64,000 bases of DNA, from NCBI RefSeq assembly GCF_900112285.1, contig NZ_FOKZ01000007.1:116322-180321 (forward strand), read 5' to 3'. The notes below the pieces were generated by a model. The model searched no databases. It was not told the origin of the DNA and was given only the letters and a program-made list of their open reading frames with translations. Position numbers and translations under genes: made by a program. Shown piece by piece: positions 3,470 to 58,203 of this stretch; position 1 is the first letter of the stretch; each line of letters opens with the position of its first letter. This DNA comes from Polaromonas sp. OV174. Lineage in GTDB: Bacteria > Pseudomonadota > Gammaproteobacteria > Burkholderiales > Burkholderiaceae_C.

Positions 3470-3538
3470 CAGAGCCCTTAAATCGCGGCCTGCGGGCGGT
3501 ATCGAATACACTTCTCACCCTGTTTTTGAAGGTTTGTC

Positions 3539-42389: not shown

Positions 42390-42430
42390 AGCCGTCAAAG
42401 CCTGATTGAATAGTCGCTGTTTCAGCACAG

Positions 42431-42489
42431 CATTCAATTAATGCGTTGAATGTATGAGCCCCCTACTGAAGTTCAGTAGGGGGCTTTTT
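42431..42489 (+). terminator. Two hairpins ending in a T-run after cytochrome c4
   Basis: CATTCAA/TTGAATG (42431-42452) is followed by a very strong stem, AGCCCCCTACTGAA (42457-42470) against TTCAGTAGGGGGCT (42472-42485), and then TTTTTC. This is a classic intrinsic terminator. It also separates the core genome on the left from the accessory cluster on the right. Confidence 0.9.
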
Positions 42490-42564
42490 CGTTTCCAAAT
42501 CCCGTTTTATTTGGATTTCACACGTCCATGCATTGCAGCGTGAAGGTGGGGAGTCGTTAGTCGA

Positions 42565-43218
42565 TCATGGGTATGTCGTCTTGTAGTCTTCGGTCGAAAC
42601 ATACATCCAAGGCAGGCAAATTCGATCCTCGGCCTCAAAAGCCTCTATCTGCGTAGAGTGTTGCTGAAGCGTCCTGCCGATTGGATCTAATCCCGTCAAT
42701 AACTGGTCGCGCTCCTCTTCACCTAAATTTATGGAGTGCGATATTCCATTGGGACCAAGTAGTTCTCGTCGCATCAGATCTACGGTCAGCAAGTGTACTT
42801 GTGGGTCGGAAGACACGGAATTGGCTAGCGTTTTAACGTCCGACTCTGGCAAGACAACAGGCGCAATTCCATTGCGAATGCAATTCTCAAAAAAAATAGC
42901 CCCGAAACTTGGCGCGACAATAGCCCGAATCCCCCACTCGACCAGCGCCCAGACGGCATGTTCTCGCGAAGAACCGCATCCAAAATTTCGTCCGGTGAGC
43001 AGAATAGTGGTTCCGTGTTGTTGGGGCTGATTCAGTACGAAGTCTGGTTCTGGCTCGCGCGTCGCAACATCGCAATAACGCCAGTTTGCGAACAGCCCGT
43101 GCGCAAGTCCATCCTTCCCTACGGTTCTGATCTCACGTGAAGGGATGATTGCATCGGTATCGATGTTGTGATGTAGTAGAGCGGCTGCAATTCCTACATG
43201 CCGAACGAAGGGTGTCAT
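42565..43218 (-). CDS. LeuD-like small subunit of an aconitase-family hydratase
   Basis: A 217-residue swivel-domain subunit that pairs with the LeuC-like protein. The motif GRNFGCGSSREHAVWALVEW lies at residues about 68-87, then AIVAPSFGAIFFENC near 92, as in isopropylmalate isomerase small subunits. It overlaps the LeuC-like gene by four bases. No leuA or leuB is present; the neighbours are a CoA-transferase and a lyase, so a catabolic hydratase (maleate, citraconate or dimethylmaleate type) is more likely than leucine synthesis. It is the last gene of the operon. Confidence 0.85.
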   Translation of the reverse strand: MTPFVRHVGIAAALLHHNIDTDAIIPSREIRTVGKDGLAHGLFANWRYCDVATREPEPDFVLNQPQQHGTTILLTGRNFGCGSSREHAVWALVEWGIRAIVAPSFGAIFFENCIRNGIAPVVLPESDVKTLANSVSSDPQVHLLTVDLMRRELLGPNGISHSINLGEEERDQLLTGLDPIGRTLQQHSTQIEAFEAEDRICLPWMYVSTEDYKTTYP

Positions 43219-44648
43219 TGTGTTTTCTCAAAAAAAACTCTTGGATCGGCGATGCGACCAACCAGTGCCGAAGCGGCAACCGTCGCAGGACTCGCCAAAT
43301 GTGTTCTTGTCTGGGGGCCTTGGCGTCCTTCAAAGTTGCGGTTAGTCGTGCTTATGACCCGTTCAGATTCTCCGAAACTTTCACCCCCTGCAAAGAAACA
43401 CATCGAGCATCCGGCTTCCCTCCATTCAAAACCAGCGTCGATAAACACACGATGAAGACCCAAGGCCTCGGCTTCGCGCTTCACGCTGGTGGAGCCTGGT
43501 ACGCAAATCGCCCGAACGTTGGGAGCAACGCGCCGTCCACGCAGTATCGCGGCCGCAGTGACGAGGTCTGACAGACGGCTGTTCGTGCATGAACCGATGA
43601 AGGCGGCCTGGATCGGAAGATCGGCAAGTCTGTCGCCAGGCTTCAGGCCCATATATGCCAGTGCGCGAAATGCGGATTCTGCGGAGCGCGCCTCGACAGC
43701 CGCTTCTGGGTCTGGAACGAACTCATCGACCCCACACGCGTGTTGGGGGCTTGTTCCCCACGTCACCATGGGGGACAATGCAGAGGCATTCATCTGTAAC
43801 TCAGCATCGAAATCTGCATCGTCGTCGCTTCGAAGCGTGCGCCAAAATGCGACGGCCTGATCCCATTGGGAATCTTTTGGTGCGAATGAGCGTCCATACA
43901 GTGCATCAAACACCTGCTCGTCGGGCGCGATCAACGCTGTGAATGCCGAGAACTCTACCGCCATGTTACACAAGGTTTGACGCGCCTCGATGGACAGTTC
44001 GCGAACTGCAGGCCCGTCGAATTCGACGACACAGCGCTGGGCACCGTCTGAGCCGTACCGGGCGATGAGCGCCAAAGCCATGTCTTTCGCACTTACGCCC
44101 GCTGCCAAACGCCCGTTGAATAGAACCCGCATGGAACGAGGCTTTCTTACGCGCAAGGTCTGCGTTGCCAGCGCATGCTCAGCCTCGGACGAGCCGATTC
44201 CCCACGCGAGCGCACCGAACGCACCTTGCGTGCAGGTGTGGCTGTCAGGGCACACCAAAGTAATGCCTGGTAAAACAATTCCTTGCTCAGGTGAAATGAC
44301 GTGAACGATGCCCTGGCGCGGATCGTCGATATCGAAAAGGTGAATTCCTGCCTTGTGAGCCTCTTCCCGGGTTGCGCGTATGAAATTCGTCCCACTCGGC
44401 ATCAAGGTGATGTCCGTCCGCCCTGGTCTGGTATCGACGATATGGTCAATCGTGGCAAAGACTTGACTGGGCCTTCTTACCGGAAGCTTGCGCTCGGAAA
44501 GCGACCGCAAGGCAACGCCACCGGTTCGCTCGTGGAGCATCACCCGGTCGATGTGCACAAGCGCCAGACTACCATCGGCATCAAGGTCGGCGATGCGGCG
44601 CCGTGACCAGATTTTTTCAAACAGCGATTGAGGGGGCCTCTTGGTCAT
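43215..44648 (-). CDS. LeuC-like large subunit of an aconitase-family hydratase (maleate/citraconate type suspected)
   Basis: A 477-residue [4Fe-4S] dehydratase subunit. The cluster ligands are Cys354 (GSCTNSR), Cys414 and Cys417 (GCSMC), with the same spacing as LeuC. PDSHTCTQGAFGALAWGIG at 134-152 is canonical. The substrate regions differ from biosynthetic LeuC as I know it: HERTGGVALRSL replaces the usual HEVTSPQAF region and CFFAGGE replaces CLAMN. Known relatives outside leucine synthesis hydrate maleate, citraconate or dimethylmaleate. It is coupled by four-base overlaps to the CoA-transferase before it and the small subunit after it. Lower GC is apparent by eye. Confidence 0.85.
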   Translation of the reverse strand: MTKRPPQSLFEKIWSRRRIADLDADGSLALVHIDRVMLHERTGGVALRSLSERKLPVRRPSQVFATIDHIVDTRPGRTDITLMPSGTNFIRATREEAHKAGIHLFDIDDPRQGIVHVISPEQGIVLPGITLVCPDSHTCTQGAFGALAWGIGSSEAEHALATQTLRVRKPRSMRVLFNGRLAAGVSAKDMALALIARYGSDGAQRCVVEFDGPAVRELSIEARQTLCNMAVEFSAFTALIAPDEQVFDALYGRSFAPKDSQWDQAVAFWRTLRSDDDADFDAELQMNASALSPMVTWGTSPQHACGVDEFVPDPEAAVEARSAESAFRALAYMGLKPGDRLADLPIQAAFIGSCTNSRLSDLVTAAAILRGRRVAPNVRAICVPGSTSVKREAEALGLHRVFIDAGFEWREAGCSMCFFAGGESFGESERVISTTNRNFEGRQGPQTRTHLASPATVAASALVGRIADPRVFFEKTQ

Positions 44649-45838
44649 TGGTCTTCGATCCGCAATACACCCGCATCCTGCATCTTCTGCAATTGATCCG
44701 GTGAAATGCCGGCAGCAAGGAGTGCTTGAGCGCCCCCCGAACCAATGCTTGGCAAATCCCGGCGCACACCCATGCGGCGCGAGCCCATTTCTATTGGCAG
44801 TGCCGGCAATTTTGTGTTTTTACCCGAGGGAAGAGTGACTGTCAGCAGTCCGCCCGCATTAAGTTGCGAATCCTCAAACAAGTCCTCAGGCTTGGCCACC
44901 GGAGCAAAAGGCAGGCCGATTTCCTCCAGTTTTTGCATCAACTCAGCTTGCGTCAGCGAACCCAAACGCTCCCGAATGATCGGCATGATGCGCTCTCTTT
45001 GCCGGACACGATCATTGTTTTTGTGAAGTGAAGGATCAGCCGCCAGCTCATCCAGGGTGAAGGCTTTGCAAAAGCTGCGCCATTGCGTGTCACTGACAAC
45101 GGCAACAAAAACTTTGTTGTGGTCTTTGACCTCGAACACGTCGTAAACCGCCCAAGCTGACTGGCGTTGTGACATGGGCGGGGCAGCCTTTCCTGTCACG
45201 GCGAACTGAGCCATGTGCTGTCCAACCAGAAATGCCGTGGTTTCGTAGAGCGCCGTCGTCACCTTTTGCCCGTTTCCGTCACGATGGCGCTGTTCCAGGG
45301 CAGCCATGATCCCGATGACTCCGAACATCGCGCCCATCACATCAATGACAGAGGCACCCGCCCGCATGGGCCTATCCGGCGTACCGGTCATATAGGCCAG
45401 GCCTCCCATCATCTGGGCCACTTCGTCCAGCGCGGTGCGATGAGCGTAAGGTCCGCTCAGGAATCCTTTGCCTGAGCAATAAATGACTTTCGGGTTGCGA
45501 GCCGACACCGCTTCGAATCCCAAGCCGAGCGCATCCATGGCGCCTGGACGAAAATTCTCAATTACAACGTCTGCTGTATCTAGTAGTTGCAAAGTGGCAT
45601 CACGCCCGGCAGCGGACTTCACGTCTATGGCAAGACTGGCCTTGTTGCGGTTGTACATCGGGAAATAACCGGCGCCCGAGCCGGTCAGGCGGCGCGTATT
45701 GTCTCCCTCCAAGGGCTCTATCTTGATGACTTCTGCGCCGAGGTCGGCGAGGATCAGGCCCATGCTCGGGCCCATCACCATATGTGTGAACTCGACCACT
45801 AACAAGCCATGTAGGGGTAGGTCGGAAATCTGGTTCAT
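44645..45838 (-). CDS. CaiB/BaiF family CoA-transferase
   Basis: A class III CoA-transferase, 397 aa. The N-terminus PLHGLLVVEFTHMVMGPSMG and LADLGAEVIKIEPLEGD (residues 31-47) are diagnostic, and the catalytic Asp166 lies in ASVIDVMGAMFG. It would move CoA from a donor (often succinyl-CoA or acetyl-CoA) to a carboxylic acid. Overlaps of four bases on both sides tie it to the HMG-CoA-lyase-like gene upstream and the LeuC-like gene downstream, so its product is probably the substrate of that lyase. The acceptor (citramalate-like or hydroxymethylglutarate-like) is an inference. Confidence 0.9.
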   Translation of the reverse strand: MNQISDLPLHGLLVVEFTHMVMGPSMGLILADLGAEVIKIEPLEGDNTRRLTGSGAGYFPMYNRNKASLAIDVKSAAGRDATLQLLDTADVVIENFRPGAMDALGLGFEAVSARNPKVIYCSGKGFLSGPYAHRTALDEVAQMMGGLAYMTGTPDRPMRAGASVIDVMGAMFGVIGIMAALEQRHRDGNGQKVTTALYETTAFLVGQHMAQFAVTGKAAPPMSQRQSAWAVYDVFEVKDHNKVFVAVVSDTQWRSFCKAFTLDELAADPSLHKNNDRVRQRERIMPIIRERLGSLTQAELMQKLEEIGLPFAPVAKPEDLFEDSQLNAGGLLTVTLPSGKNTKLPALPIEMGSRRMGVRRDLPSIGSGGAQALLAAGISPDQLQKMQDAGVLRIEDQ

Positions 45839-46818
45839 GAAGATTTAAAATTTTTTGGCAGTCCCGCCAGTGGGACCATGCCGTAGAGAGGCTCGCCAGG
45901 AAGGGCATCGCTCAGCAGTTGACGGGCGGCCATCAATCGACCGTAGTCAATTCCGGTGGAGATGCCCATTGCTTCCAGCATGAATACAAGATCTTCCGTG
46001 ACGATGTTGCCGCTGGCGCCAGGCGCAAATGGGCAACCGCCCAACCCGCCTTGAGAGGCGTCTATGGTGGTCAATCCCTCATCAATTGCGGTAACCGCGT
46101 TTGCCAGGCCAAGCCCCCTGGTGTTGTGCAAATGAATGCCGGTGAGTTTGTCGGCTCCGACGCGTTCGTGAACTTTCCTTATCAAGCGTCGGACTTGCGC
46201 TGGATTTGCGTAGCCAGTCGTATCAGAAAGACCCACTTCGTCGCACCCTGCCTTGATAAGAATCTCCGCAAAATCAACCACTCTTGACTCGGGAACGTCG
46301 CCCTCCAGCGTGCAGCCAAATGCAGTCGACAAGCCCCCTTCAAAGTGAGGACGAGTTTGCTTCGGCAACGATTGCAGATAGTCACCGACTGCATGTATCT
46401 CACGAATCATTTGTTCATGCGTACGCCTGACGTTCTTGAGGCTATGGGTTTCGCTGCAGGAAAAAGGAATTGTGATTTTGTTTGCGCCGGCCAGGACGGC
46501 TGCTTCCGCACCTTTCAGATTCGGCACCAATACCGCAACGGCAAGTCCTGGCAGTCTGCTCGCATACTCGACAAGTTCCGAAGTGTCGGCCATCTGGGGA
46601 AGTACCTTGGCGGGAACAAAAGATCCCACCTCGATTTCCCGTAATCCAGCGTTATACAGCGCATGAATCCAGGCTTTCTTGTCCGCGGTTCTCATGAGTT
46701 GCGAAATACTTTGTAGCCCATCACGTGGGCCCACTTCGCTTACTGTTACTTGCGTACTCGTGCTACTAGCCCGTGCACGCTCTGATGCAGATGATTGATT
46801 CGCCCGTTGATCTTGCAT
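45835..46818 (-). CDS. HMG-CoA-lyase-like acyl-CoA lyase
   Basis: A DRE-type TIM-barrel lyase of 327 residues. Metal and catalytic residues are present: Arg32-Asp33 in EVGPRDGLQ, His229 and His231 in HLHN, and the catalytic Cys262 in GGLGGCPFAPGASGN. The family cleaves 3-hydroxy-3-methyl acyl-CoA esters to acetyl-CoA and a ketone; HMG-CoA gives acetoacetate, citramalyl-CoA would give pyruvate. The residue pattern IPFSCSETHSLKNV differs from the classic mitochondrial-type lyase. It is translationally coupled to the CoA-transferase, and seven bases from the porin gene. Confidence 0.85.
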   Translation of the reverse strand: MQDQRANQSSASERARASSTSTQVTVSEVGPRDGLQSISQLMRTADKKAWIHALYNAGLREIEVGSFVPAKVLPQMADTSELVEYASRLPGLAVAVLVPNLKGAEAAVLAGANKITIPFSCSETHSLKNVRRTHEQMIREIHAVGDYLQSLPKQTRPHFEGGLSTAFGCTLEGDVPESRVVDFAEILIKAGCDEVGLSDTTGYANPAQVRRLIRKVHERVGADKLTGIHLHNTRGLGLANAVTAIDEGLTTIDASQGGLGGCPFAPGASGNIVTEDLVFMLEAMGISTGIDYGRLMAARQLLSDALPGEPLYGMVPLAGLPKNFKSS

Positions 46819-46825
46819 TGCTGAA

Positions 46826-47890
46826 TCAAAAGTTGTGCACGATGCCCAGCGTCATCGCAGTCGCCTTGTCCTTGAACCCGGCGCCTTGGTAACCGCTTCG
46901 CCAGTCCGTATGATCCAGCTCCGCATACAGCTTGGATCGCTTGGACAACGAGTATTCAAGAAATGCGATTGCGCGACCTAATCCGTCATTACTCAGCTTG
47001 GTCCTGCTTCGCTTCATATCGTAGTAAGACAACGTGAGCTCAAGGCTTGGCGACAGCTTGGAGCTGTAGCCCACGCCGACAGTTCGATGTCCGGTTGAGG
47101 AGGTGGCAGTCAGATCGGCGTCATTATGGGCGTAGCTCAGCTTGAAATGGCCTAGATCAGTGCGCAGTGCCCCGCCCGCAATGTAGGCATTGAGCTTCTG
47201 GGCCCCCGTTCCTTTTAATGTCATATAGGCGATCTGGGCTTCAAAGGCTCCAGCTTTATAGCCGGCTCCGACGCCGCTGCTGCTTCGGTCACCTCCGCTT
47301 GCTTCGCCCGGTCCGGCCATGGCTTTCAAGGTCACCGCTCCCAGATTGACTGCGTACTTGAGCGAGTTGTCCATGCGGTATGAACCGGTTGTAGAACCGC
47401 CGGTTGATCCGAACTCGGATCCCAGGCCATGTGCAGAGAGCGCACCAAACTGGACATTGGGGTTGAACCCGGCAAATCGAATTGCGAGCGGGTCAATGAC
47501 GCCAAGTGTGTCTGCCAGAAGGTTGGTGTGTCGGCCCAGGGTAACGGTGCCCCAAGGCGTCTGTAGCCCGACGTAGCTCATCCGATCCCAGAACTTGTTC
47601 GTGTCAGCGTTGGCGCCTGTGTCCAGGGCCAGGCCCGACTCGACGTTGAAGATCGCGTAATTTCCGCCGCCGAGGTCCTCCCGGCCACGAAAGCCAAATC
47701 GGGAGGTGCGGTTCACGCCACTGGAAATGCCCAGTACAGTCCCCGTGCCCGGCCGATTTGCCGTGCTCAGGCCTGACGCGTAGCGAACGCCGCTATCCGC
47801 AATTCCATACAGGGTCAGTCCGGTTTGCGCTGCTGCGGCTTGCAGCATGCAGAGCAAAGTCGCTCCTGTCGCAAAAGGCCTTAATTTCAT
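46826..47890 (-). CDS. Gram-negative porin (Burkholderiales type)
   Basis: An outer-membrane trimeric porin of 354 residues. A signal peptide (to about residue 21, ending QAAAAQ) precedes the first strand TGLTLYGIADSGVRY. SSRFGFRGREDLG-like text (here TSRFGFRGREDLGGG) near residue 61 and TVTLGRHTNLLADTL near 115 are typical, and the protein ends in GIVHNF with C-terminal Phe. GAGGAGA precedes the ATG. Its place inside the operon suggests it admits the acid that the pathway uses. Confidence 0.9.
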   Translation of the reverse strand: MKLRPFATGATLLCMLQAAAAQTGLTLYGIADSGVRYASGLSTANRPGTGTVLGISSGVNRTSRFGFRGREDLGGGNYAIFNVESGLALDTGANADTNKFWDRMSYVGLQTPWGTVTLGRHTNLLADTLGVIDPLAIRFAGFNPNVQFGALSAHGLGSEFGSTGGSTTGSYRMDNSLKYAVNLGAVTLKAMAGPGEASGGDRSSSGVGAGYKAGAFEAQIAYMTLKGTGAQKLNAYIAGGALRTDLGHFKLSYAHNDADLTATSSTGHRTVGVGYSSKLSPSLELTLSYYDMKRSRTKLSNDGLGRAIAFLEYSLSKRSKLYAELDHTDWRSGYQGAGFKDKATAMTLGIVHNF

Positions 47891-47998
47891 TGCAGTTCTC
47901 CTCGATTTATCTTGGTTTTTAGAAAAGCCCGGCCGGCTCCCTCTAGCGAGAAAAGGCCGGAATGGAGGACGGGTGTCCGTATCTGTTGCGTATACTGC

Positions 47999-49213
47999 TC
48001 AGCGAATCGCCGTGGCCTCGCGAAGGCCGCTGATCATCGATGTCTCCAGCAGGTATTGAGTCGCTAATGCCTTGTCGGATGCTTTTTGCTGGAGATCTGT
48101 TAATGACCGCCTTCGCTTTTCTGTGTCCCGCTCCTGCATGCGCGCTCGGTTCCGGCCTGACTGCTCGAGTACGTGCTTCACAGCAATCGGTCGACGCTGT
48201 CGTTCGTACAGCTGGAGCAGTTCCGTGCTTTCTCCGGCATAAATTCGACTGAGTTTTTCAGCAAGGTTGAAGGCGTCATGAATGCCGCCATTCATGCCCA
48301 TACCACCACTCGGACTGTTGATGTGTGCGGCGTCTCCGACGAGCACCACTCGGTCGTGAACATACTGCTGCACAACGCGCTGGTGAATCCGGTAAGGCCT
48401 GATTTCAAGAACGTCATAGGGCTCCGCCTTCGGATGGATTTCCTGCAGCTTGGCTTGAATCGAGGCGGGCGCCACGGCTTCTTCATCCGATTCTCCGTCG
48501 CGGGGGTAGAGGCTCACCCTCCACAGATCGCGCAGACGCAGCAGGCTGAATGTGCCGCTTTCCTTCCAGCAGTAGTTGATGAAGGACAGGTCCGGAATAT
48601 GCTCGTGAAAACGAAAGCTGGTGGTCGCCAGCACCGTGGTTTCTGGAAAAGTATGTCCATCAAACGCCAGGGCCAGTTGTGACCGGACTATGCTTCTGGC
48701 ACCATCCGCACCGATCAGGTAGGCGCCGGTGAACGACTGAAGTTCGCCATCCGGACCTTGCGCCACCACATCGACGCTATCGGCGTGCTGCAAAAATTTT
48801 TGCACGCGATGGCCGTTCAACACCTCAATTCCAGGCAGCCTGTCCCGAATGTGCTCCAGTAGATACTCGGCCAACTTCCATTGCTCGCATTGGAGGCGAT
48901 AGGGGTGGGCAGTGTGGTCTTTCAGGATTGAGAGATCGAATTCCGCAAACTCGCCGGTGGTGTGCCACCGCACTTGCCAGGTCGGCGCCACCAAACCGGC
49001 CTCTATCAGCCGCGACGTGATGCCGAAATCTTCGAGCATGTCGAGTGTCGGAGGATGAAACGTGGAAGCGCGCAGATCATGAGGCACTTCGGCGGCGGCT
49101 TCCAGAACCAGGCATTCGATTCCGTAGTGTCCTAGAAGCATGGCAGTAGTGAGGCCGACAGGCCCGGCGCCGACAATGATCACACGTTGATCGGCCAGTT
49201 TTCGCGTATTCAT
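47999..49213 (-). CDS. Class A FAD-dependent aromatic-type monooxygenase
   Basis: A 404-residue flavoprotein hydroxylase. The FAD motif VIIVGAGPVGLTTAMLL lies at 11-27, the GADGARSIVR motif near residue 163, and GDAAHINSPSGGMGMNGGIHD near 278. The family uses NAD(P)H and O2 to hydroxylate rings such as phenols, hydroxybenzoates or hydroxypyridines. No separate reductase is needed. It is separated from the porin gene by 108 bases and from the isomerase gene by 126 bases on the same strand. The substrate is unknown; no ring-cleavage dioxygenase is present nearby. Confidence 0.85.
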   Translation of the reverse strand: MNTRKLADQRVIIVGAGPVGLTTAMLLGHYGIECLVLEAAAEVPHDLRASTFHPPTLDMLEDFGITSRLIEAGLVAPTWQVRWHTTGEFAEFDLSILKDHTAHPYRLQCEQWKLAEYLLEHIRDRLPGIEVLNGHRVQKFLQHADSVDVVAQGPDGELQSFTGAYLIGADGARSIVRSQLALAFDGHTFPETTVLATTSFRFHEHIPDLSFINYCWKESGTFSLLRLRDLWRVSLYPRDGESDEEAVAPASIQAKLQEIHPKAEPYDVLEIRPYRIHQRVVQQYVHDRVVLVGDAAHINSPSGGMGMNGGIHDAFNLAEKLSRIYAGESTELLQLYERQRRPIAVKHVLEQSGRNRARMQERDTEKRRRSLTDLQQKASDKALATQYLLETSMISGLREATAIR

Positions 49214-49339
49214 ATTAGGTGCAGGAAAGTTGAGTGGAGGGAGGCAACTTGAGTGAGCAGTTCGCCATGAACTGTTCGTTGCTTAATATTTCTACAATAG
49301 GACAATTGATTCGGATGAGCGCCGCATCAGGTAGCCGTC

Positions 49340-50104
49340 TTAGTGTTTTAGAGCCTCTAGGCGAGGAGCCCAGTGCTCACCCACGAGCCAGCTTTGGATT
49401 GAATGACCGCCCGGATTCACAAGCTCTACAGCTTTCCAGGCAAGACACAACATGCATGACAGGACGGGGACACCTTTCGCCTCCCTGTTTGCCTGCAGCA
49501 AGGGTTCCAGCGTGGGCATACCCGTTCCAAGCATGACCAGAGCATCCACACCGGCCAGGGAGCCCAGTTCGCCAAGAACACTGTTGGCTTGCGCGGCGCT
49601 TAGGGAATAGATGGGATGAAAGTTGGTTGAATTGAAGGCGGCCGAAGCTTCCTTGACAACCGTCAGTCCGTGCGATTCCCAGTACTTCACGCTCTTTTGT
49701 GTCAACCCTTCGGGATAAGGTGTTGCCAAGGCGATGCGTCGCGCGCCCATTTGAGCCAGGCAATCCACAAGTGCGGTCGCCGCCGTGAAGGCCGTGATGC
49801 CTCTCCTTGCGCCCAACTGTTCCAGCAAGCTCTCCTCTTGCTCGCGCCCTGCCAGATACGATGCGCCCGTACACCCAAGAGCGAGCGCCTCAATTGGAGC
49901 GTTGGCAAATTGGTCTGCCGTCTGATCGGCAATGCGAAGGTAATCTAGCAAGCGCCCTTCAATGGTCTCTTTTTTGCTCACAAGCCTGGCGTTGATGTGT
50001 GCATAGCCTGGTGGCAGCAGTACTGAGAACTCGGGCTCGACGGTTGTGTTGGCTTGTGGCGTCAGCAGCCCAATCAAGCCTTTTGAGGCATATTCGACTT
50101 TCAT
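49340..50104 (-). CDS. Asp/Glu racemase superfamily protein (maleate isomerase / arylmalonate decarboxylase type)
   Basis: A 254-residue protein with two-domain racemase fold. ATG 50104 (MKVEYASKGLIGLLTPQANTT) gives the standard maleate-isomerase-like opening. Cys78 in ALGCTGASY and Cys217 or Cys220 in VLSCMLCLAW are the expected pair of active-site cysteines; decarboxylases of this group need only one, so an isomerase is favoured. NicE of nicotinate breakdown is a relative. It lies 22 bases after the Bug gene. The longer open frame from 50215 has no family support. Confidence 0.78.
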   Translation of the reverse strand: MKVEYASKGLIGLLTPQANTTVEPEFSVLLPPGYAHINARLVSKKETIEGRLLDYLRIADQTADQFANAPIEALALGCTGASYLAGREQEESLLEQLGARRGITAFTAATALVDCLAQMGARRIALATPYPEGLTQKSVKYWESHGLTVVKEASAAFNSTNFHPIYSLSAAQANSVLGELGSLAGVDALVMLGTGMPTLEPLLQANREAKGVPVLSCMLCLAWKAVELVNPGGHSIQSWLVGEHWAPRLEALKH

Positions 50105-50126
50105 GGAAGCAGCTCCTTTTTCGCGC

Positions 50127-51122
50127 TTATTCGATAGTGATCTTGGCGGCTTTGAGGATAGGAGCCCACTTTGCGGTTTCTTGCCGGAGGAAGTTGTCGA
50201 ATTCCCGGGGGCCAAGACCCATGGGGTTTATTCCAGCCTGTTGAAGCTGCGCGCGGAGCAAGGGACTCTGGGTGACTTTTTCGAGTTCGGCGCGAATCCT
50301 CTCGATCACGGGACGCGGTGTTTTTGCTGGCACCGATACTCCGAACCACGCGTCACCGATGGCGCCAGGAATGGTTTCATTCATGGTCGGAACGTCAGGG
50401 TAATCGCGCAATCGCATAGCGCTGCTTACTGCCAGCGCCCGAAGTTTTCCGGAACTGATTTGAGAAGCTGCGACTGCCGGGCTTGTCAGCATGGCGCCTA
50501 TGGAGCCGCCGACCAGGTCCGTGACGGCGGGGCCCGTTCCCTTGTATGGCACATGCACCATGCTGATCTTTGCCAGTTGCTGAAGAAGCTCCCCCGCCAG
50601 GAATCCGGCGGACCCTACGCCAGCTGAGCCCCAGCTGACGCCCTTTGGGTCTTTGCTCGAAATTTCCAGAAATTGCTTTAGTGTCTTTGCAGGATGGTCG
50701 GCGCGGACCACCAGCATGTTGGGGAAGCTTCCGATCAAAAACACGTGAACGAAGTCATCAATCGGTTTGTAGGGCAGCTTCTGCCCGATCAATGGGCCGG
50801 TTGTAATGGCGGCCCCATTGGTGATGGTCAACGTATAGCCGTCTGGCGCCGCCTTGGCTCCTGCGTCGGTTCCGATGAGGGACCCGGCCCCTCCGCGATT
50901 TTCAATGACGACGCTTTGGCCAAACCCTTCTCCCAACTTGTGGCCAATCAACCGGGCAACGATGTCTCCGGTACCGCCGGGAGCAAAGGGAACAATCAGT
51001 TTGACTGGTTTGTTCGGATACGCATCCTGCGCCATCGCGTTGCTGCCCAGCGCTAGAGCGAGGGCAGTTAAGAGCATGGTACGGCGTTGCAGAAAAACCT
51101 TGAGGCACAGTGAAGAGATCAT
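50127..51122 (-). CDS. Tripartite tricarboxylate transporter substrate-binding protein (Bug/TctC family)
   Basis: A periplasmic solute-binding protein of 331 residues. A signal peptide (MISSLCLKVFLQRRTML then ALALALGSNAMAQ) is followed by the standard YPNKPVKLIVPFAPGGTGDIVARL and GQSVVIENRGGAGSLIGTDAGAKAAPDG. Bug proteins bind carboxylates or amides; Burkholderiales have many, often without adjacent membrane subunits, as here. It is the first gene of the minus-strand operon, divergent from the GntR regulator, and probably binds the substrate or a precursor of the pathway. Confidence 0.9.
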   Translation of the reverse strand: MISSLCLKVFLQRRTMLLTALALALGSNAMAQDAYPNKPVKLIVPFAPGGTGDIVARLIGHKLGEGFGQSVVIENRGGAGSLIGTDAGAKAAPDGYTLTITNGAAITTGPLIGQKLPYKPIDDFVHVFLIGSFPNMLVVRADHPAKTLKQFLEISSKDPKGVSWGSAGVGSAGFLAGELLQQLAKISMVHVPYKGTGPAVTDLVGGSIGAMLTSPAVAASQISSGKLRALAVSSAMRLRDYPDVPTMNETIPGAIGDAWFGVSVPAKTPRPVIERIRAELEKVTQSPLLRAQLQQAGINPMGLGPREFDNFLRQETAKWAPILKAAKITIE

Positions 51123-51226
51123 GAATCGTTTACCCTGTCGACGTTGAATCCGTATTGACAGATGAGCGTCCTTAAATTCCGCCCATGTGCCGAAGACAAT
51201 CAAGAGTGTCCGTGTTTATTGTTCCA

Positions 51227-51246
51227 TTGTACCTATAATCATACAA
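51227..51246 (+). promoter_or_regulatory. Putative operator of the GntR regulator overlapping its -10 box
   Basis: The inverted repeat TTGTA-N10-TACAA (51227-51246) encloses a consensus TATAAT (51234-51239), 14 bases before the gntR ATG and in the intergenic region shared with the Bug gene. A dimeric regulator bound here would block its own promoter. No convincing -35 element was found, so this is a prediction. Confidence 0.5.
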
Positions 51247-51260
51247 ATAAATTTTAATTT

Positions 51261-52046
51261 ATGCAACAGTCCATGCCTTTGCCGAAGTACCACCAGGTGT
51301 ACCTCGTCCTGAAAGAGCGACTTCTCGAGGGTTTTTACAACGAAAAATTTCCAGGCGAGCTTGAGTTAACTACCGAATTTGAAGTCTCAAGAGTCACCAT
51401 TCGGAAGGCTCTCAGCAATCTGGCGTCTGAAGGTCTCATCGAAAGAACCGCCGGGCGTGGAACCCGACGGGTAGATGCAAGCGGTGCTTCAGCCGGGAGC
51501 GGAGCAGGATCTGTCCGCCCCCATCTGCTGGATAAGCTTGTTGCCATCAATCAGCACACCACGGTTAAAGTTCTTGAGCACGAGCGTATCTCTGCGACGG
51601 AGTCAGTGGCGGCCGCACTGCAGGTAGATGTGGGTGCTGAAGTTTTACGTGTGGTGAGGCTCCGCAGTACAAGCGACGGGCCTGTCTCTTATATTGTCGC
51701 GTGGCTGCCTGCCATCAGTTCTCGTGGGCTGACCAAGAGTCAACTCGAACGCAAGCCCATCCTCACGCTGATTGAAGAGGCTGGAGTCCAGATCTCGAGC
51801 GCCACTCAAACCGTGTCGGCCAGGCAAGCCGACAGTCTGGTTGCCCGCCATCTCGCAGTGCCTGTTGGAACGGCCCTGCTTGCTGTCAGTCGAATTGTCT
51901 TTGATGGGGAGGCTAGGCCTGTTCAGTGGCTTCAAGGGCTGTACCGACCCGACAGATACGAGTACGAAATGAAATTGTCTCGTTCTGACGAAGCCGATAC
52001 CGCCAATGTGTGGATCAGCAAGGAGCTCACCACTCGCATTCAGTAA
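51261..52046 (+). CDS. GntR family transcriptional regulator, HutC subfamily (UTRA domain)
   Basis: A 261-residue regulator. The N-terminal winged helix includes PLPKYHQVYLVLKERLLEG and the recognition part EFEVSRVTIRKALSNL (residues about 39-54), then the wing with GLIERTAGRGTRR. The C-terminal UTRA ligand domain ends with QWLQGLYRPDRYEYEMKLS. It is divergent from the Bug-to-LeuD operon and very likely controls it in response to a pathway metabolite. Downstream lies a decayed copy of a similar C-terminus, so two such regulators were once present. Confidence 0.9.
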   Translation: MQQSMPLPKYHQVYLVLKERLLEGFYNEKFPGELELTTEFEVSRVTIRKALSNLASEGLIERTAGRGTRRVDASGASAGSGAGSVRPHLLDKLVAINQHTTVKVLEHERISATESVAAALQVDVGAEVLRVVRLRSTSDGPVSYIVAWLPAISSRGLTKSQLERKPILTLIEEAGVQISSATQTVSARQADSLVARHLAVPVGTALLAVSRIVFDGEARPVQWLQGLYRPDRYEYEMKLSRSDEADTANVWISKELTTRIQ

Positions 52047-52080
52047 TGCGCTGTTTGAGTGCGGGTTGGTGCACTCGGTG

Positions 52081-52271
52081 GCTGTGCGGCGAGTGGACAT
52101 CGAGGCCGCCGCACCATTGCTGTCGATGCGCAGGGAGTGCTAATGCAGCTGCTTGATGGTTTGTACCGTCCCGACAGCTACGAATACCGGCTGGCGCCAT
52201 CGCGAGTGGGTGTCGGGAGTGCCAATGTCTGGATGCCAGCCGAACGCTTCGCGGAGTCATCGTCCGACTGA
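52081..52271 (+). pseudogene. Remnant of a second GntR/UTRA regulator (C-terminal end only)
   Basis: A frame from about 52110 to 52271 encodes LMQLLDGLYRPDSYEYRLAP and ends SANVWMPAERFAES, clearly similar to the C-terminus of the intact regulator just upstream (LQGLYRPDRYEYEM, TANVWISKEL). Another frame from 52081 reads AVRRVDIEAAAPLLSMRRE, a UTRA-like segment that should precede it, so a frameshift near 52130 is likely. The winged-helix part is missing. It probably belonged to the adjacent hyu cluster. Confidence 0.7.
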
Positions 52272-52335
52272 AGGTGGCGAGCAACCAAGGGAGCATCCCA
52301 GAGCGGTCGTCTGCATGCAGGTCACTCCATGGCTG

Positions 52336-52950
52336 CTATTGCAGTGCCCGGATAAAAACCTCGGAATTCATTACCTCAGCGACGTTTCGCATATCGGCAA
52401 GTGAGGTTTGGTGGCGCTCCTCACCGAAGGCCGCACAGCCGTCGGCCAACACCACGACGCGGTAGTCGCGCATGTGGGCATCGCGCACGGTGCTGGCGAC
52501 GCCGCCGTTGGTCACGATACCGCACACCGCCACCGTGTCTATGCCAGCGCGGCGCAGCAACCAGTCGAGCTGGGTGTTGAAAAAGGCCGAGTAGGCAACC
52601 TTGCAGACCGTCACGTCGGCTAGGCTTGCTAGCGCATCGACGTTGGCCTGGCCCCAACTGCCGGGCGCGAAGTCACCCTTCCTCAGATAGGGACGCAGCG
52701 TCTTCAGGTGCGACGAGATCATAGGTTCACCTGCCGCGTCCGGCCACAGGGTGAACTGGCTCGTGGCGACCAGTCCGCCAACTGCCTTGAGCGCGCGCGC
52801 CACGGTGGCCACGCGATCCGGCAGCTGCAGCGCGGGCGGGTTGGTGTCGCCACCGCGCGCATAGGCGCCCTTGGCATCGAGAAAGTCGTTCTGCAGGTCG
52901 ATGATGACCAGCGCGGTTCTGGCCGCGGCGATGGCTTCGCCGTTGCTCAT
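52336..52950 (-). CDS. Isochorismatase-fold hydrolase lacking the nucleophilic Cys
   Basis: A 204-residue cysteine-hydrolase-family protein. Asp18 in ALVIIDLQNDF and Lys117 in CKVAYSAFFNT fit the catalytic triad, but the position of the nucleophile reads TNGGVAST, with Gly150 where amidases have Cys. True isochorismatases also have Gly there. N-carbamoylsarcosine amidases, common partners of HyuAB, need the Cys, so amidase activity is doubtful. Its start overlaps the hyuA stop by four bases, so it is the third gene of the hyuB-hyuA operon. Confidence 0.75.
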   Translation of the reverse strand: MSNGEAIAAARTALVIIDLQNDFLDAKGAYARGGDTNPPALQLPDRVATVARALKAVGGLVATSQFTLWPDAAGEPMISSHLKTLRPYLRKGDFAPGSWGQANVDALASLADVTVCKVAYSAFFNTQLDWLLRRAGIDTVAVCGIVTNGGVASTVRDAHMRDYRVVVLADGCAAFGEERHQTSLADMRNVAEVMNSEVFIRALQ

Positions 52951-55001
52951 GATGGCCTCACCAGCAGGTTGCCGTGCGCATCGACCTCGGCGTGAAAGCC
53001 GGGTTCAAGCCATACGGTGGTATCGACCTGTTCGAGGATCGCGGGGCCGTTGATGCGTGCGGCCACGGGCAGTTCTAGCCGCGCGTAGCGCACCGCGTCA
53101 TGCCATTGGCCCTGGTGGAAAACGCGCTGCGAGCCCAGCGACGCGGTGCTGCCCTTGCCTTCTGGTGCCAGCACGGCGAGGTCGAACTTGGGCCGCACGC
53201 CGATGCGCGCATAGCGCAGATTCATCACGCGGATGGCAATGCCGTCGAGCACGCGGCCGAAGGCGGCGGTGTAGGCAGCCTCGAAGGCGGCGCGGATGGA
53301 TGCGGCAGTGAGCGGCACCTTGCCCGCATCTGCGAGCACCACGGGCAGCGTGTGCGTCTGGCCCGCGTAGAGCATGTCGAGCGCGATCACCTCGCGCACT
53401 TCGTCGAAGCGAACGCCCGAGGAATCGAGGCGCTGCTGGCAGCTAGCAGCCAGTTCATCGATGCGGCGCTGCACGTCGCCCACGTCGAGTTCGGTCAGCG
53501 GCTTGTTGAGCGTCTGCACCGCGTCGTGACGCATGTCGGCAATCACGCAGCCGAGGGCGGAAGTCACACCGGGGTACCGCGGCACGATGCCTGTCGCCAC
53601 GCCCACCTCGCGCATCATCGCGCACACATGCAACGCGCCACCGCCGCCGAAGGGCATGTAGGCGAAGCGGCGCGGGTCGTGGCCGCGTTCGATGGAGACG
53701 AGGCGAATGGCGCCCGCCATGCGCGCATTGGCCACCGTGAGAATCGCCTCGGCCGCGGCATGCACGTCGAGGCCGAGTGGCCGGGCGACGTGTTCCTCGA
53801 TGACCTGGCGCGACTTCTCCGCATCCAGCGCCGCGAGCAGCCCGCCGCCCAATGGACGATCGGCAGCGATGCGCCCCAGCAGCACGTTCGCATCGGTCAC
53901 CGTCGGCCGCATGTTGCCGCGCCCGTAGCAAGCAGGCCCCGGCACGCTCCCGGCGGACTCTGGGCCGACCTGCAGCATCCCGCTCGCATCCACCGAGGCG
54001 ATCGAGCCGCCCCCTGCGCCGATGGTCTCGATCTGGATCATCGGCGAGCGGATCACCATGCCGAACTCGATGGCGGTCTGAGCGGCCAGTGCGGCCTCGC
54101 CGTTCGCCACCAGCGACACGTCGAACGAAGTGCCGCCCATGTCACCGGTGATCGCGTTGGGGAAGCCTGCCGCACGCGCAATGGCAGCACAGGCAATCAC
54201 GCCGGCCGCCGGGCCCGAGAGCGCGGTCCGCACCGGTAGGTCGCTTGCGGTCTGGCGCGACATCAGGCCGCCGTTGCTCTGCACCACCAGCAGTTCGCCC
54301 GCAAAGCCCTGGCCGCGCAGGTCGGATTCGAGCCGCTCGAGATAGCTACCCACCACGGGCTGCAGCGCCGCATTGAGCGTGGCGGTCGAGCAGCGCTCGA
54401 ACTCGCGGATCTCGGGCAGCACCTCGCTCGCCGAGGTGACGTGCGGGTTGGGCCAGAGCACGCGCACCGCAGCGACGGCGAGGCGCTCGTTCCCGGGGTT
54501 CGCGTAGGTGTTGATGAAGAACACGCACACCGCTTCGCAGCCGGCTTCGAGCAGCGAGCGTGCTTCGGCGCGCACCTGGTCCAAGTCGACCGCCGTGTGC
54601 AGCGTGCCGTCGGCCAGCACGCGCTCGTCCACCTCGCGGCGCAGGTCGCGTGGCACCACGGGTGTGAAGCTGCCACGCAGGCCCCAGGTCTCGGGCCGGT
54701 CGCGGCGGCGCATCTCCAGCACATCGCGAAAACCGCGCGTGGTGATGATGCCGGTGCGCGCCACCTTGCGTTCAAGCAGCGCATTCGTGCCGACCGTGGT
54801 GCCGTGCACGATGGTGGCGATGGCCGCGGCCGAGTCGGCCACGCGCGCCACGCCGTTCATGAAGCCGCGTGCTTCCTCGCCGCGCGTGGAAGGCACCTTG
54901 ACGATGCGTGCCGTGCCGTTGGCCTCGTCGAGCACGAAGAGGTCGGTGAAGGTGCCGCCGACATCGACGCCGACGACAAGGGATTTACCAGTGGAAGTCA
55001 T
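52947..55001 (-). CDS. hyuA: Hydantoinase/5-oxoprolinase family subunit A (HyuA)
   Basis: A 684-residue ATP-using subunit that, with HyuB, opens cyclic amides such as hydantoins, N-methylhydantoin or oxoproline; related enzymes carboxylate ketones. The actin-like N-terminal domain begins VVGVDVGGTFTDLFVLDEA (residues 9-27); ITGDMGGTSFDVSLV near residue 285 and GAGGGSIASVDASG near 330 mark the Hydantoinase_A domain. Four-base overlaps with hyuB upstream and the isochorismatase-fold gene downstream show one operon. The substrate cannot be told. Confidence 0.88.
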   Translation of the reverse strand: MTSTGKSLVVGVDVGGTFTDLFVLDEANGTARIVKVPSTRGEEARGFMNGVARVADSAAAIATIVHGTTVGTNALLERKVARTGIITTRGFRDVLEMRRRDRPETWGLRGSFTPVVPRDLRREVDERVLADGTLHTAVDLDQVRAEARSLLEAGCEAVCVFFINTYANPGNERLAVAAVRVLWPNPHVTSASEVLPEIREFERCSTATLNAALQPVVGSYLERLESDLRGQGFAGELLVVQSNGGLMSRQTASDLPVRTALSGPAAGVIACAAIARAAGFPNAITGDMGGTSFDVSLVANGEAALAAQTAIEFGMVIRSPMIQIETIGAGGGSIASVDASGMLQVGPESAGSVPGPACYGRGNMRPTVTDANVLLGRIAADRPLGGGLLAALDAEKSRQVIEEHVARPLGLDVHAAAEAILTVANARMAGAIRLVSIERGHDPRRFAYMPFGGGGALHVCAMMREVGVATGIVPRYPGVTSALGCVIADMRHDAVQTLNKPLTELDVGDVQRRIDELAASCQQRLDSSGVRFDEVREVIALDMLYAGQTHTLPVVLADAGKVPLTAASIRAAFEAAYTAAFGRVLDGIAIRVMNLRYARIGVRPKFDLAVLAPEGKGSTASLGSQRVFHQGQWHDAVRYARLELPVAARINGPAILEQVDTTVWLEPGFHAEVDAHGNLLVRPS

Positions 55002-56698
55002 TCGGAGGCTTTCTTGTCGCTGCTGCCGGTCGTCACATAACCCATTGCGCTGTCGGCTTCGCGCTGCGGTGCGGCCCGCTCGGCCGCATGGCCCCAGCCG
55101 CCGCCGCCGGGAGTTTCGAGCCGCACGCGCTCACCGCGCGCGAGCTGGATGCCGCGCATCTTCGACACCATGGGTGGCGTGTGCCACTCGCCCGCGTTCT
55201 CGTAGCTGAACACGTTGACCGCGCCTTCGCCGCCGCCCGCGATGCCCTTGGGCGGCGAGGTGCCGCGCTCGCCGAAGACGAACACTTCGGCGTCTTTCTC
55301 CAGTAGTTCGATTTCATACACGGCGCCGAGCCCGCCGCGGTGCCGGCCGTCGCCGCCCGAATCGGCCCGCAGCGACCACTCGGTGAAGCGCACCGGGTAC
55401 GCGGCTTCGAGAATCTCCAGCGGCGGAATCGTCGCGGTGGAGATCGGTGCATTGCCGTGCGAGAGCCCGTCGCCACCCGAGTGGCCGCCATGGCCGCCGC
55501 CGAAAAAGCTGAACATCACCCAACGCTGGCCTTCGCGGCCTTTGTCGCTGCGGTGGCCCGCGATCGACAGCGCATTGATCGTGCCGTAGGCCTGCGCCAC
55601 CGCACGCGTCGGGTCGGCCTGGGCGGCAGCGCTGAAGATCACGTCGATCATCCGCAGGATGGTTTCGGTGTAGCCGCCGACCGGACGCGGGCGCTCACAG
55701 CTAATCACCAGCTTGTCGGGGATGTTGAAGTCCACCGCATCGAGCACGCCGGCATTGGCGGGCACGTCGGGGAACAGGTGTTTGAGCGCGACGTAGCAGG
55801 CCGCCACTGCGGTGGCCCGCGAGATGTTCACAGGCCCCGCGCATTGCGGCGAGGTGCGCGAGAAGTCGAGCAGCAGCCGGTCGCCGGCTACCGTCATGTC
55901 GAGCGCGATGGTGAGCGGCTCGTTCACGATGCCGTCGTTGTCGAGCACGTCCTCGAAGCTGTAGCGACCGTCGGGCAGCGAAGCGATGTGCGAGCGCATG
56001 TGGCGCAGCGCACGGCTGCGCAGCTCGCCAAGCGCGTTCAATACCAAGTCGTCGCCATACTCGTCGAGCAAACCGTTCAGCCGCTTCTCGCCGAGCTCCA
56101 GCGCGGCGAGCTGGCCGTTCAGGTCACCCCAGAGGCTGTCGGGCAGGCGCGTGTTGGCCTGCAGGATCGCGAGCACGTCCGCATCGAGTACGCCGCCCTG
56201 CACGATGCGCACCGGCGGAATCTGCACCGCCTCCTGCCAGCACTCGGTGGCGGCCGGGTTGTAGTTGCCGGGCACCGCGCCGCCCACGTCGTGCCAGTGT
56301 GCGGCCGAGGCCATGTAGCAGTAGAGCTTGCCGTTGCGAAAGAAGGGCTTCACCAGCTTGAAGTCGTTGGCGTGGGTGCCGCCGTCGTAGGCGTCATTGC
56401 TGATCCAGATGTCGCCGTCCTTCATGCCGCCGCGCGGCTCTGCCGCCTTCGCGGTGGCGCGCACGGCGAAGGCCATGGCGCCGACGAACACCGGCAGGCC
56501 CGACTTGCCCTGCACCAGCGTGTCGCCGCTCGCTGCGTCGTACAGGCCGTGGCAGGCGTCGTGCGCCTCGGCAATGATGGGATTGAAGGCGCTGCGGTAG
56601 AGCGTGGCGTCCATTTCGTCGGCCACCTGTTCGAGGCGGCCGCGCAGGACGGCGAGCGTGACGGGATCCGTCGTCATACTGGAACGCAATTCAAACAT
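54998..56698 (-). CDS. hyuB: Hydantoinase/5-oxoprolinase family subunit B (HyuB)
   Basis: A 566-residue partner of HyuA. DPVTLAVLRGRLEQVADEMD opens the domain, followed by the family motif WISNDAYDGGTHANDFKLVKP (shown from residue about 108) and GGGHGGHSGGDGLSHGNAP near 420; the C-terminal GERVRLETPGGGGWG is diagnostic. The ATG at 56698 has GGAG seven bases upstream; ATG 56677 is a shorter option and an upstream in-frame start at 56752 lacks support. Together with HyuA it would act on a cyclic amide in an ATP-dependent way. Confidence 0.88.
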   Translation of the reverse strand: MFELRSSMTTDPVTLAVLRGRLEQVADEMDATLYRSAFNPIIAEAHDACHGLYDAASGDTLVQGKSGLPVFVGAMAFAVRATAKAAEPRGGMKDGDIWISNDAYDGGTHANDFKLVKPFFRNGKLYCYMASAAHWHDVGGAVPGNYNPAATECWQEAVQIPPVRIVQGGVLDADVLAILQANTRLPDSLWGDLNGQLAALELGEKRLNGLLDEYGDDLVLNALGELRSRALRHMRSHIASLPDGRYSFEDVLDNDGIVNEPLTIALDMTVAGDRLLLDFSRTSPQCAGPVNISRATAVAACYVALKHLFPDVPANAGVLDAVDFNIPDKLVISCERPRPVGGYTETILRMIDVIFSAAAQADPTRAVAQAYGTINALSIAGHRSDKGREGQRWVMFSFFGGGHGGHSGGDGLSHGNAPISTATIPPLEILEAAYPVRFTEWSLRADSGGDGRHRGGLGAVYEIELLEKDAEVFVFGERGTSPPKGIAGGGEGAVNVFSYENAGEWHTPPMVSKMRGIQLARGERVRLETPGGGGWGHAAERAAPQREADSAMGYVTTGSSDKKASE

Positions 56699-56894
56699 CG
56701 AAGAACTCCATGCCAGACTGCTGGCGCAACTGGTTGATAAAGCCGCCTGCACGGATCATTTCCATCTGGAGTGCCGACATCAACTCAGATGCTAGGTGCG
56801 CAGCGTCGGACGTGATGACAATGGAGAATGCGATTTCGATGGCGAAGAAGCCACCTTTGCCATCGGCACGGGTGTCGACTGTCATCGCAGCCAT
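56691..56894 (-). CDS. Small hypothetical protein or gene remnant upstream of hyuB
   Basis: A 67-codon frame, MAAMTVDTRADGKGGFF to QQSGMEFFDV, that ends by overlapping the start of hyuB by eight bases. Codon use looks like coding sequence and the overlap suggests coupling, but no ribosome binding site precedes the ATG, a stop lies six codons upstream, and no family is recognised. It may be the tail of a larger gene lost when the island boundary formed. Confidence 0.35.
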   Translation of the reverse strand: MAAMTVDTRADGKGGFFAIEIAFSIVITSDAAHLASELMSALQMEMIRAGGFINQLRQQSGMEFFDV

Positions 56895-57335
56895 TGACGG
56901 AGCGGTAGGTCATGGAGTTTTGATAAAGGCATTCGTAACATGCCCATCATGATTATTCAGTTCTATTGTCATGTCAATAGTACATTTAAATATGCAAAAA
57001 CAAGGCATTTAACACAGGCCGTTTTTTTCGACCATGACATCATGGATGGCTCTTGCATCCTGCGAAGGCTGCGGTCCGCCAAAACTGCTCTGATTCTAGT
57101 GACGCTTCACTCGATGCCGGTCATTTCCCAACTGGAGTTGGCGTAGCTTGATCAGCCGGTTAGTCGCAAGTTTTCGGGATCGTGTGCATCGAGTTTCACA
57201 CCGACTGGGCTGGTTTCACCCAGTGCATCAGGATCGAGGCATCTAGTTCTGCTCCCAGTCATTCAAGGTCTCGCTGCTTCAGCGACCTTTGGTGGCCGAA
57301 AAGCGTGGGTGCCAATGAGGTGTGTGGTGCCCGGA
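56895..57335. other. Gene-free gap, AT-rich on the left
   Basis: About 440 bases without a supported gene. The part from 56930 to 57020 is visibly AT-rich compared with both flanks. Short frames here overlap DUF1841 or lack ribosome sites. No inverted repeats or target duplications were found. It probably marks the right edge of the 42.5-57 kb accessory segment. Confidence 0.6.
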
Positions 57336-57770
57336 TCAGTCCCGAGTCGCATGCCGCTGCACGCAGTCGATATACGCAGCTCCATCGGGCGGGCGGCCGG
57401 CGCGCTGGCTTTCCCAAACCATTTGCCCCAGACAGTCCATCGCTTCGTGGTGCGCATCGTGCAGTGAGTTGCGTTTGGCAGTTAACAATTCCACCGCCTG
57501 GCGTATGCCCCTGGGCTGGTCGATGGAGCACTGCTCGCTGATCGACAGGTGCATGGACAGGTGTAGAAAGGGATTGGTTTTGCCGGCTTCCACGTCGTAC
57601 ATTTTTTCCAGTGCGGCATCGGCATCGGCAAAATCGGCGTGGTATTCCGGGTGTTCGTCCATCCACTGGCTTGCTATTGTTTCAATAGCTTCAAGTGGTT
57701 GACCAGAGCGGGCCTTGGCATAAACGGAGCAAAAAAAACGGCGGACGTCGGCTTGTGAGGGCGTAAACAT
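57336..57770 (-). CDS. DUF1841 family protein
   Basis: A 144-residue soluble protein of unknown function found widely in betaproteobacteria. The opening MFTPSQADVRRFFCSVYAKA, the ETIASQWMDEHPEYHADFAD segment (from residue about 30) and NPFLHLSMHLSISEQCSIDQP near residue 65 match the family as I know it. The conserved His-x3-His of HLSMHLS could bind metal, but this is a guess. It stands alone on the minus strand between the gap and a divergent small membrane protein. Confidence 0.85.
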   Translation of the reverse strand: MFTPSQADVRRFFCSVYAKARSGQPLEAIETIASQWMDEHPEYHADFADADAALEKMYDVEAGKTNPFLHLSMHLSISEQCSIDQPRGIRQAVELLTAKRNSLHDAHHEAMDCLGQMVWESQRAGRPPDGAAYIDCVQRHATRD

Positions 57771-58179: not shown

Positions 58180-58203
58180 ACGGCAAGGCACCCTTTATCG
58201 GCA

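Follow-up and report, generated by a model that had tools for sequence, protein, structure and literature searches.

A 64,000-nucleotide stretch of Polaromonas sp. OV174 (contig NZ_FOKZ01000007.1, positions 116,322 to 180,321; hereafter the window) carries an inserted block of ~15 kb, here termed the island, which comprises a nine-gene operon, its divergent HutC-family regulator included, along with HyuA, HyuB, an isochorismatase-family gene and a further ~0.6 kb that is unassigned (Table 1). This is a real, conserved and acquired catabolic unit. We hold it to be about evenly balanced whether the operon's tail, comprising LeuC-LeuD, a CaiB/BaiF transferase (CaiB) and a lyase of the 3-hydroxy-3-methylglutaryl-coenzyme A (HMG-CoA) lyase fold (HMGL), hydrates an alkylmaleate-type diacid, loads it with coenzyme A (CoA) and cleaves it, likely in place of a CoA-free lyase of the isocitrate lyase (ICL) type, with the front end supplying the diacid. 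LeuCD-type enzymes convert alkylmaleates to (R)-2-alkylmalates. The LeuC-LeuD of the operon would form such an (R)-2-alkylmalate from the diacid, CaiB would load it with CoA and HMGL would cut the product to an acyl-CoA and a 2-oxoacid; in the simplest case, citraconate would be converted via (R)-citramalate and (R)-citramalyl-CoA to acetyl-CoA and pyruvate. The front end, consisting of a FAD monooxygenase (FMO), a protein of the arylmalonate decarboxylase (AMDase)/maleate isomerase (MaiA) fold (AMD) and the isochorismatase-family amidase, would deliver the diacid from a small nitrogen-containing ring or amide, with HyuA/HyuB as the putative ring opener in this genome. We infer every substrate, every reaction and the regulation from sequence.

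Conservation of the operon and exchange of its lyase

An earlier note, made from the DNA letters, had described eight minus-strand genes facing a divergent GntR/HutC regulator, and open reading frame calls and family profile searches found all eight together with the plus-strand GntR/UTRA regulator, confirming the families. The interval it drew, ending at 51246, held the eight genes and stopped just before the regulator (51261-52046); the block itself continues to ~57336, taking in the isochorismatase-family, HyuA and HyuB genes (52336-56698). Four-base ATGA overlaps at the LeuD/LeuC, LeuC/CaiB and CaiB/HMGL junctions resemble those of a translationally coupled operon.

When 84,980 species genomes were scanned with an alignment of AMD, 210 stretches encoding a relative emerged, the best 80 of which were kept (L045-L124), 14 of these being shorter than 12 kb. 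The whole operon recurs in three of the 80, from Ottowia thiooxydans (L045), the Comamonadaceae metagenome-assembled genome AER2_3 (L046) and Roseateles violae (L103), with the shared order HutC / Bug-AMD-FMO-(porin)-HMGL-CaiB-LeuC-LeuD and protein identities of 58-82%; among the three, only R. violae has the porin. These conserved copies in Burkholderiales support the view that the genes form one unit, as a single operon in four genomes including that of the window, although front and tail are separable modules elsewhere. The isochorismatase-family gene adjoins HutC in the window, the Comamonadaceae genome and R. violae, and lies ~7 kb off in Ottowia. Across the 80 loci, FMO was found near AMD in 61, HutC in 28 and the isochorismatase in 24, compared with none for six control proteins and one for the seventh. 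The LeuC type is rare, being present at E <= 1e-170 in 8 of 399 family genomes and at E <= 1e-140 in 11 of 300 order genomes, own genome counted in both; at the stricter threshold it occurs in none of the five congeners shown in the family listing.

Behind a different front end, HMGL-CaiB-LeuC-LeuD stand in the same order in two further family genomes (L171 and L172; 59-72% identity), preceded by an isochorismatase-family protein and two relatives of the polysaccharide deacetylase/allantoinase PuuE; the relatives of this allantoinase-like pair in L009 scored 119 and 95 bits on the PuuE profile (cut-off 424.6). L171 additionally encodes another FAD monooxygenase-like reading frame before the isochorismatase, a cytosine/purine/allantoin-family permease, and relatives of HyuA (35% identity) and HyuB (28%). 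Plasmids of Acidiphilium, Sphingomonas JE1 and Sphingobium TomTYG65 (L009, L010 and L044) carry these same parts in rearranged order. The AMD family was not found in any of the six searched genomes or records with this other front end (G587, G657, G380, which is 85% complete, and the three plasmids). On the conjugative or mobilizable sphingomonad plasmids L010 and L044, HMGL/CaiB and an ICL-type lyase occur together with two sets of LeuCD and a pair of allantoinase-like proteins, an arrangement that would fit the formation of two different diacids. Likewise, L046 carries a second, diverged CaiB-HMGL-LeuC-LeuD set upstream of its isochorismatase (positions 3-4141; 32, 41, 46 and 39% identical to the window's proteins), and may handle two alkylmaleates.

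At the lyase step, two enzyme types exchange. LeuC lies near AMD in 31 of the 80 loci, accompanied by an ICL/PEP-mutase-superfamily lyase in 22 and by HMGL and CaiB in three, with neither in view in six. PDB relatives of the ICL-superfamily lyase include 2-methylisocitrate lyase and 2,3-dimethylmalate lyase. One gene run (L101) joins isochorismatase, HyuA, HyuB, ICL lyase, LeuD, LeuC and FMO, with AMD divergent. In a LeuC tree of 51 of the 56 collected proteins (length filter 350-600 residues, which left out the L172 LeuC in its open frame of 791 residues), the copies partnered by HMGL/CaiB form a clade of nine rows with support 100/99; the label 'other' fell on the window through a mismatch in its record name and on L173 because its contig ends shortly after LeuC. 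Just outside this clade follow, joined at 94/71, L174 and L176, both beside an ICL-type lyase, and L175, with HMGL and CaiB ~5 kb off, and the second LeuC copies of L046, L010 and L044, labelled HMGL+CaiB, also fall outside the clade. The LeuD loop IPSRE occurs in all ten HMGL/CaiB-type copies and in the ICL-partnered L174 and L176, which speaks for a shared hydratase type. We withdrew SRE in this loop as a mark of the CoA-dependent type, given its presence in L174, L176 and L137. No ICL-superfamily lyase adjoins LeuCD among the island's protein families, and in the own genome the TIGR02317 profile detected one PrpB (398 bits) and two weak stretches. Together, this pattern suggests that CaiB and HMGL replace the CoA-free lyase, such that two unrelated enzymes would do one job, the cleavage of a hydrated alkylmaleate.

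The earlier scheme of isomerisation, hydration, activation and cleavage is therefore sound for the predicted hydration and cleavage of an alkylmalate, because close neighbours of the LeuC clade (L174 and L176) stand beside an ICL-type lyase; isomerisation is doubtful, because a glycine takes the place of the second catalytic cysteine found in maleate isomerase. A role for LeuCD and HMGL in leucine metabolism was rejected, since another leuC in the genome scores 759 bits on TIGR00170 (cut-off 560.25) against 538.9 for the operon LeuC, which is thus not the genome's leucine enzyme, and profile searches found no leucine or leucine-catabolism family among the other island proteins. LeuD exceeds the TIGR00171 equivalog-domain cut-off, and the HMGL motifs align with 1ydo. 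CaiB reaches none of the cut-offs of the named NCBIfam equivalogs listed (best 235 bits versus 750). According to PMC6689899, HMGLs of the TIM-barrel type act as lyases of (S)-HMG-CoA, and the (S)-citramalyl-CoA observed in a CitE-like lyase is equivalent to (R)-HMG-CoA. An HMGL-fold lyase would accordingly be suited to (R)-citramalate made by LeuCD.

Borders, composition and predicted regulation of the island

The island is not present at this site in any of the four congeners compared by blastn (L202-L205), where the flanks are spaced 85 bp (L202), 155 bp (L204), 158 bp (L205) and ~1.6 kb (L203) apart. The junction regions share no identical stretch of at least 10 bases in the comparison made for signs of a mobile element, and no plasmid match was found for 56700-57400, an interval that covers the unassigned ~0.6 kb closing the island on its right (56700-57336). 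Just right of the island, a 0.8-kb piece (57338-58180) is inverted in L205 relative to L202, L204 and the window.

Proteins of the right-hand part match a Variovorax plasmid (HyuB 93%, HyuA 94% and isochorismatase 84% identity), and within the same 24 kb this plasmid also has genes for a HutC relative (50%), a more distant LeuCD type (35% and 29%), an ICL lyase and a FAD dehydrogenase. A close isochorismatase was also found in seven of 60 other congeners, and the order HyuA-isochorismatase-FAD dehydrogenase-ICL lyase was conserved in all seven fetched, with LeuCD upstream in six; the contig of the seventh ends. L198, one of these congeners, also carries an AMD relative and FMO. The place that the FAD dehydrogenase and ICL lyase hold in those seven genomes is taken by the HutC operon in the window. 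A search of the own genome, run without a positive control, found no FAD dehydrogenase.

We predict that the regulator responds to a pathway compound and acts on a palindrome, TTGTA-N10-TACAA, in the gap before the divergent genes, and similar sites occupy the same gap in L045, L046 and L103. Just downstream of the intact regulator gene lies a 42-codon C-terminal remnant of a second HutC-like regulator (52143-52271, plus strand), closest to Pigmentiphaga HutC (56-61% over 28-34 residues). The putative uptake part of the proposed full import-to-central-metabolism unit consists of a lone binding protein and a porin, and no membrane transport subunit was seen among operon reading frames of at least 100 residues.

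Table 1. Features of the island, with window coordinates
Feature	Position	Strand	Basis
Inserted block (island)	42391..57336		blastn against four congeners: alignment ends 42346-42392, restarts 57336-57355
LeuD-like hydratase small subunit	42565..43218	-	Aconitase_C 96 bits; TIGR00171 185 bits (cut-off 116.25); loop IPSRE
LeuC-like hydratase large subunit, PRK12466 subfamily	43215..44648	-	Aconitase 487 bits; NF009116 682 (cut-off 531); TIGR00170 538.9 bits, below cut-off 560.25; motifs GSCTNSR and GCSMC
CaiB/BaiF family III CoA-transferase	44645..45838	-	CoA_transf_3 368 bits
HMG-CoA-lyase-fold lyase, predicted alkylmalyl-CoA lyase	45835..46818	-	HMGL-like 168 bits; NF004283 289 (cut-off 246); conserved motifs
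Outer-membrane porin	46826..47890	-	Porin_4 132 bits
FAD monooxygenase (FMO)	47999..49213	-	FAD_binding_3 227 bits; PDB search
AMDase/maleate-isomerase-fold protein (AMD)	49340..50104	-	Amdase 68 bits; alignments; fold match
Bug-type periplasmic binding protein (TctC)	50127..51122	-	TctC 202 bits
Candidate HutC operator, palindrome TTGTA-N10-TACAA	51227..51246		Sole strict match within 64 kb
GntR/HutC-family regulator	51261..52046	+	GntR and UTRA domains; relatives at conserved loci
Isochorismatase-family hydrolase, predicted amidase	52336..52950	-	RutB 80 bits and PRK11440 80 bits, both below cut-off
HyuA-type subunit (caprolactamase/N-methylhydantoinase relatives)	52947..55001	-	CapA 518 bits (cut-off 1000); PDB N-methylhydantoinase
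HyuB-type subunit	54998..56698	-	CapB 281 bits (cut-off 1000)

Front end and competing readings

The nearest solved relatives of FMO in a PDB search were PnpA and HspB, enzymes of nitrophenol and hydroxypyridine breakdown, and those of the isochorismatase-family protein were YecD and RutB. The isochorismatase, HyuAB and the allantoinase-like proteins of other loci are predicted C-N hydrolases, and we favour an entry compound that would contain nitrogen, in a ring or amide, rather than a bare acid. A plain nicotinate or nicotine lower pathway was rejected for the island, as no ring-cleaving dioxygenase or deformylase occurs among the families of its twelve proteins, the rest of the genome not having been searched.

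Several observations weigh against the proposed unit. The isochorismatase and HyuAB fall below the cut-offs of all named equivalogs listed, and the island comprises two GC classes, 51-58% from LeuD to HutC and 65-69% for isochorismatase, HyuA and HyuB, its halves therefore having different histories; the two pieces join at ~52.1-52.3 kb, where the HutC-like remnant marks the seam. HMGL-CaiB pairs also abound without LeuCD: CaiB neighbours HMGL in 21 of 29 short loci (L014-L042), and the own genome has three further HMGL-CaiB pairs (L006-L008), so that the pair alone cannot fix the substrate. FMO is absent from 19 and LeuC from 49 of the 80 AMD loci, a set that includes the 14 loci below 12 kb, and the AMD-FMO pair therefore has a wider use. 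Finally, no close HyuA was found in the genomes of L045, L046 and L103 (best matches 34-40%), which weakens HyuAB as an obligatory part and leaves it as an optional ring opener or a mere neighbour.

The strongest rival, which we nevertheless consider unlikely, is that the cell imports a bare unsaturated methyl diacid such as mesaconate or citraconate, which the MaiA-like protein isomerises before it is hydrated, activated and cleaved, with FMO, isochorismatase and HyuAB as bystanders. AMD matches the AMDase/maleate isomerase fold over nearly its full length (20-26% identity in structural alignments), and its Cys78, a cysteine in 115 of the 120 homologues listed, aligns with the nucleophilic Cys76 of Nocardia maleate isomerase. 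The second cysteine of that enzyme, Cys194, is however replaced by Gly193, a glycine in 118 of the 120, and in the fold search AMDases come within 1.5 Z. The protein labelled 'maleate-isomerase-like' is best described as an AMDase/MaiA-fold protein, with a single cysteine in its active site. In 59 of the 80 loci, FMO is no more than 4 kb away from AMD and is therefore no bystander, and the other front end that serves the same tail combines C-N hydrolases with no AMD in the six genomes or records searched.

Somewhat less probable still is a decarboxylase role, in which FMO and its partners would make an alkenyl- or aryl-malonate-type acid that AMD decarboxylates, with reversed stereochemistry, before LeuCD acts. 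The Cys78/Gly193 arrangement is the reverse of the Gly74/Cys188 arrangement of AMDase. The protein scores 61.6 bits against the AMDase equivalog cut-off of 225, and a malonate-forming step is not evident. In PMC4996985, none of the 58 catalogued AMDases has a cysteine at position 74, which places the operon's AMD family outside that set; AMD has its fold in common with AMDase and maleate isomerase, with Cys78 on the nucleophile side as in maleate isomerase and Gly193 differing at the second site.

Several loci showed further variation around AMD. In L057 (7078-8957), FMO is replaced by a luciferase-like monooxygenase immediately ahead of AMD, and L066, L074, L091 and L106 contain tandem AMD-family genes, the second copy of which (30-35% identical to the window's) may have a different cysteine arrangement. 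A UGSC-family protein (PF24696) is encoded near the operon in Ottowia (L045, 3670-4251), and the HMGL-CaiB pairs of L152 and L153 have weak relatives of it close by.

That CaiB activates a 3-methylglutaconate- or HMG-like acid for HMGL to cut to acetoacetate and acetyl-CoA, with LeuCD acting elsewhere, appears improbable: HMGL does exceed the PRK05692 HMG-CoA-lyase subfamily cut-off (289 versus 246) and PDB relatives of CaiB include human succinate-hydroxymethylglutarate CoA-transferase, but LeuCD is coupled to HMGL/CaiB by the 4-base overlaps and conserved with the pair, and sister loci have in the pair's place an ICL-type lyase, relatives of which cleave 2-methylisocitrate or dimethylmalate.

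Beyond the preferred reading of an alkylmaleate-degrading tail, there is a slim chance that the island and its sister clusters are the means by which bacteria degrade methyl-branched maleimides and succinimides, which remain as single rings from heme, chlorophyll and bilins. The imide would be opened by HyuAB or the allantoinase-like pair and the diacid released by the isochorismatase. Either the FMO/AMD pair or a flavin dehydrogenase would then yield a 2-methyl-3-alkylmaleate for hydration by LeuCD, and a PrpB-like lyase or CaiB with HMGL would release pyruvate and a fatty acid or acyl-CoA. On each such ring a methyl group neighbours a second side chain, and this is the pattern that a lyase of the methylisocitrate-lyase-like or HMG-like kind would require.

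Related systems and significance

The closest relatives of the unit are operons combining LeuCD and an ICL-superfamily lyase with HyuAB and isochorismatase (L101, L195-L201 and L206-L208), which share the hydratase-then-lyase logic and the isochorismatase/HyuAB relatives; their HutC relatives are 50% identical in L206 and L207 and 39% in L208. The window differs in that CaiB and HMGL take the place of the ICL-type lyase and that the operon includes both AMD and FMO; the search noted above detected no FAD dehydrogenase in the own genome. We take the dimethylmaleate hydratase and dimethylmalate lyase of Eubacterium barkeri to be a close known counterpart of the LeuCD-ICL type. The (R)-citramalyl-CoA lyase and CoA-transferase of Chloroflexus pair an HMGL-fold lyase with a family III CoA-transferase for the reaction that is predicted here; that pair serves a CO2-fixation cycle, whereas the window's accompanies a LeuCD hydratase in a HutC-controlled catabolic operon.

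The nicotine/hydroxypyridine lower pathway includes HspB, maleamate amidase and the maleate isomerase Iso, and the window resembles it in its HspB-related FMO, isochorismatase-family hydrolase and Iso-fold protein. The island differs in ending in LeuCD-CaiB-HMGL and in the missing dioxygenase and deformylase families. Degradation of itaconate and methylsuccinate, as described in PMC12290011, likewise involves a branched C5 acid, CoA transfer and the products acetyl-CoA and pyruvate, but proceeds via (S)-citramalyl-CoA and a CitE-type lyase; the paper mentions neither isopropylmalate nor HMG-CoA lyase. Judged by titles and abstract openings, with subscription journals thinly covered, no paper describing this gene set was found.

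In the widespread AMDase/MaiA-fold family, the one catalytic cysteine naturally occupies the position into which protein engineers had to introduce it, and the neighbouring flavin monooxygenase makes the function of AMD testable. If the proposed pathway is true, a single degradation logic could end in either of two interchangeable ways behind one type of Fe-S hydratase, the branched malate being cut either as the free acid by an isocitrate-lyase fold or as the CoA thioester by an HMG-CoA-lyase fold. This would give a role to many genes that are now named after leucine biosynthesis or leucine catabolism.

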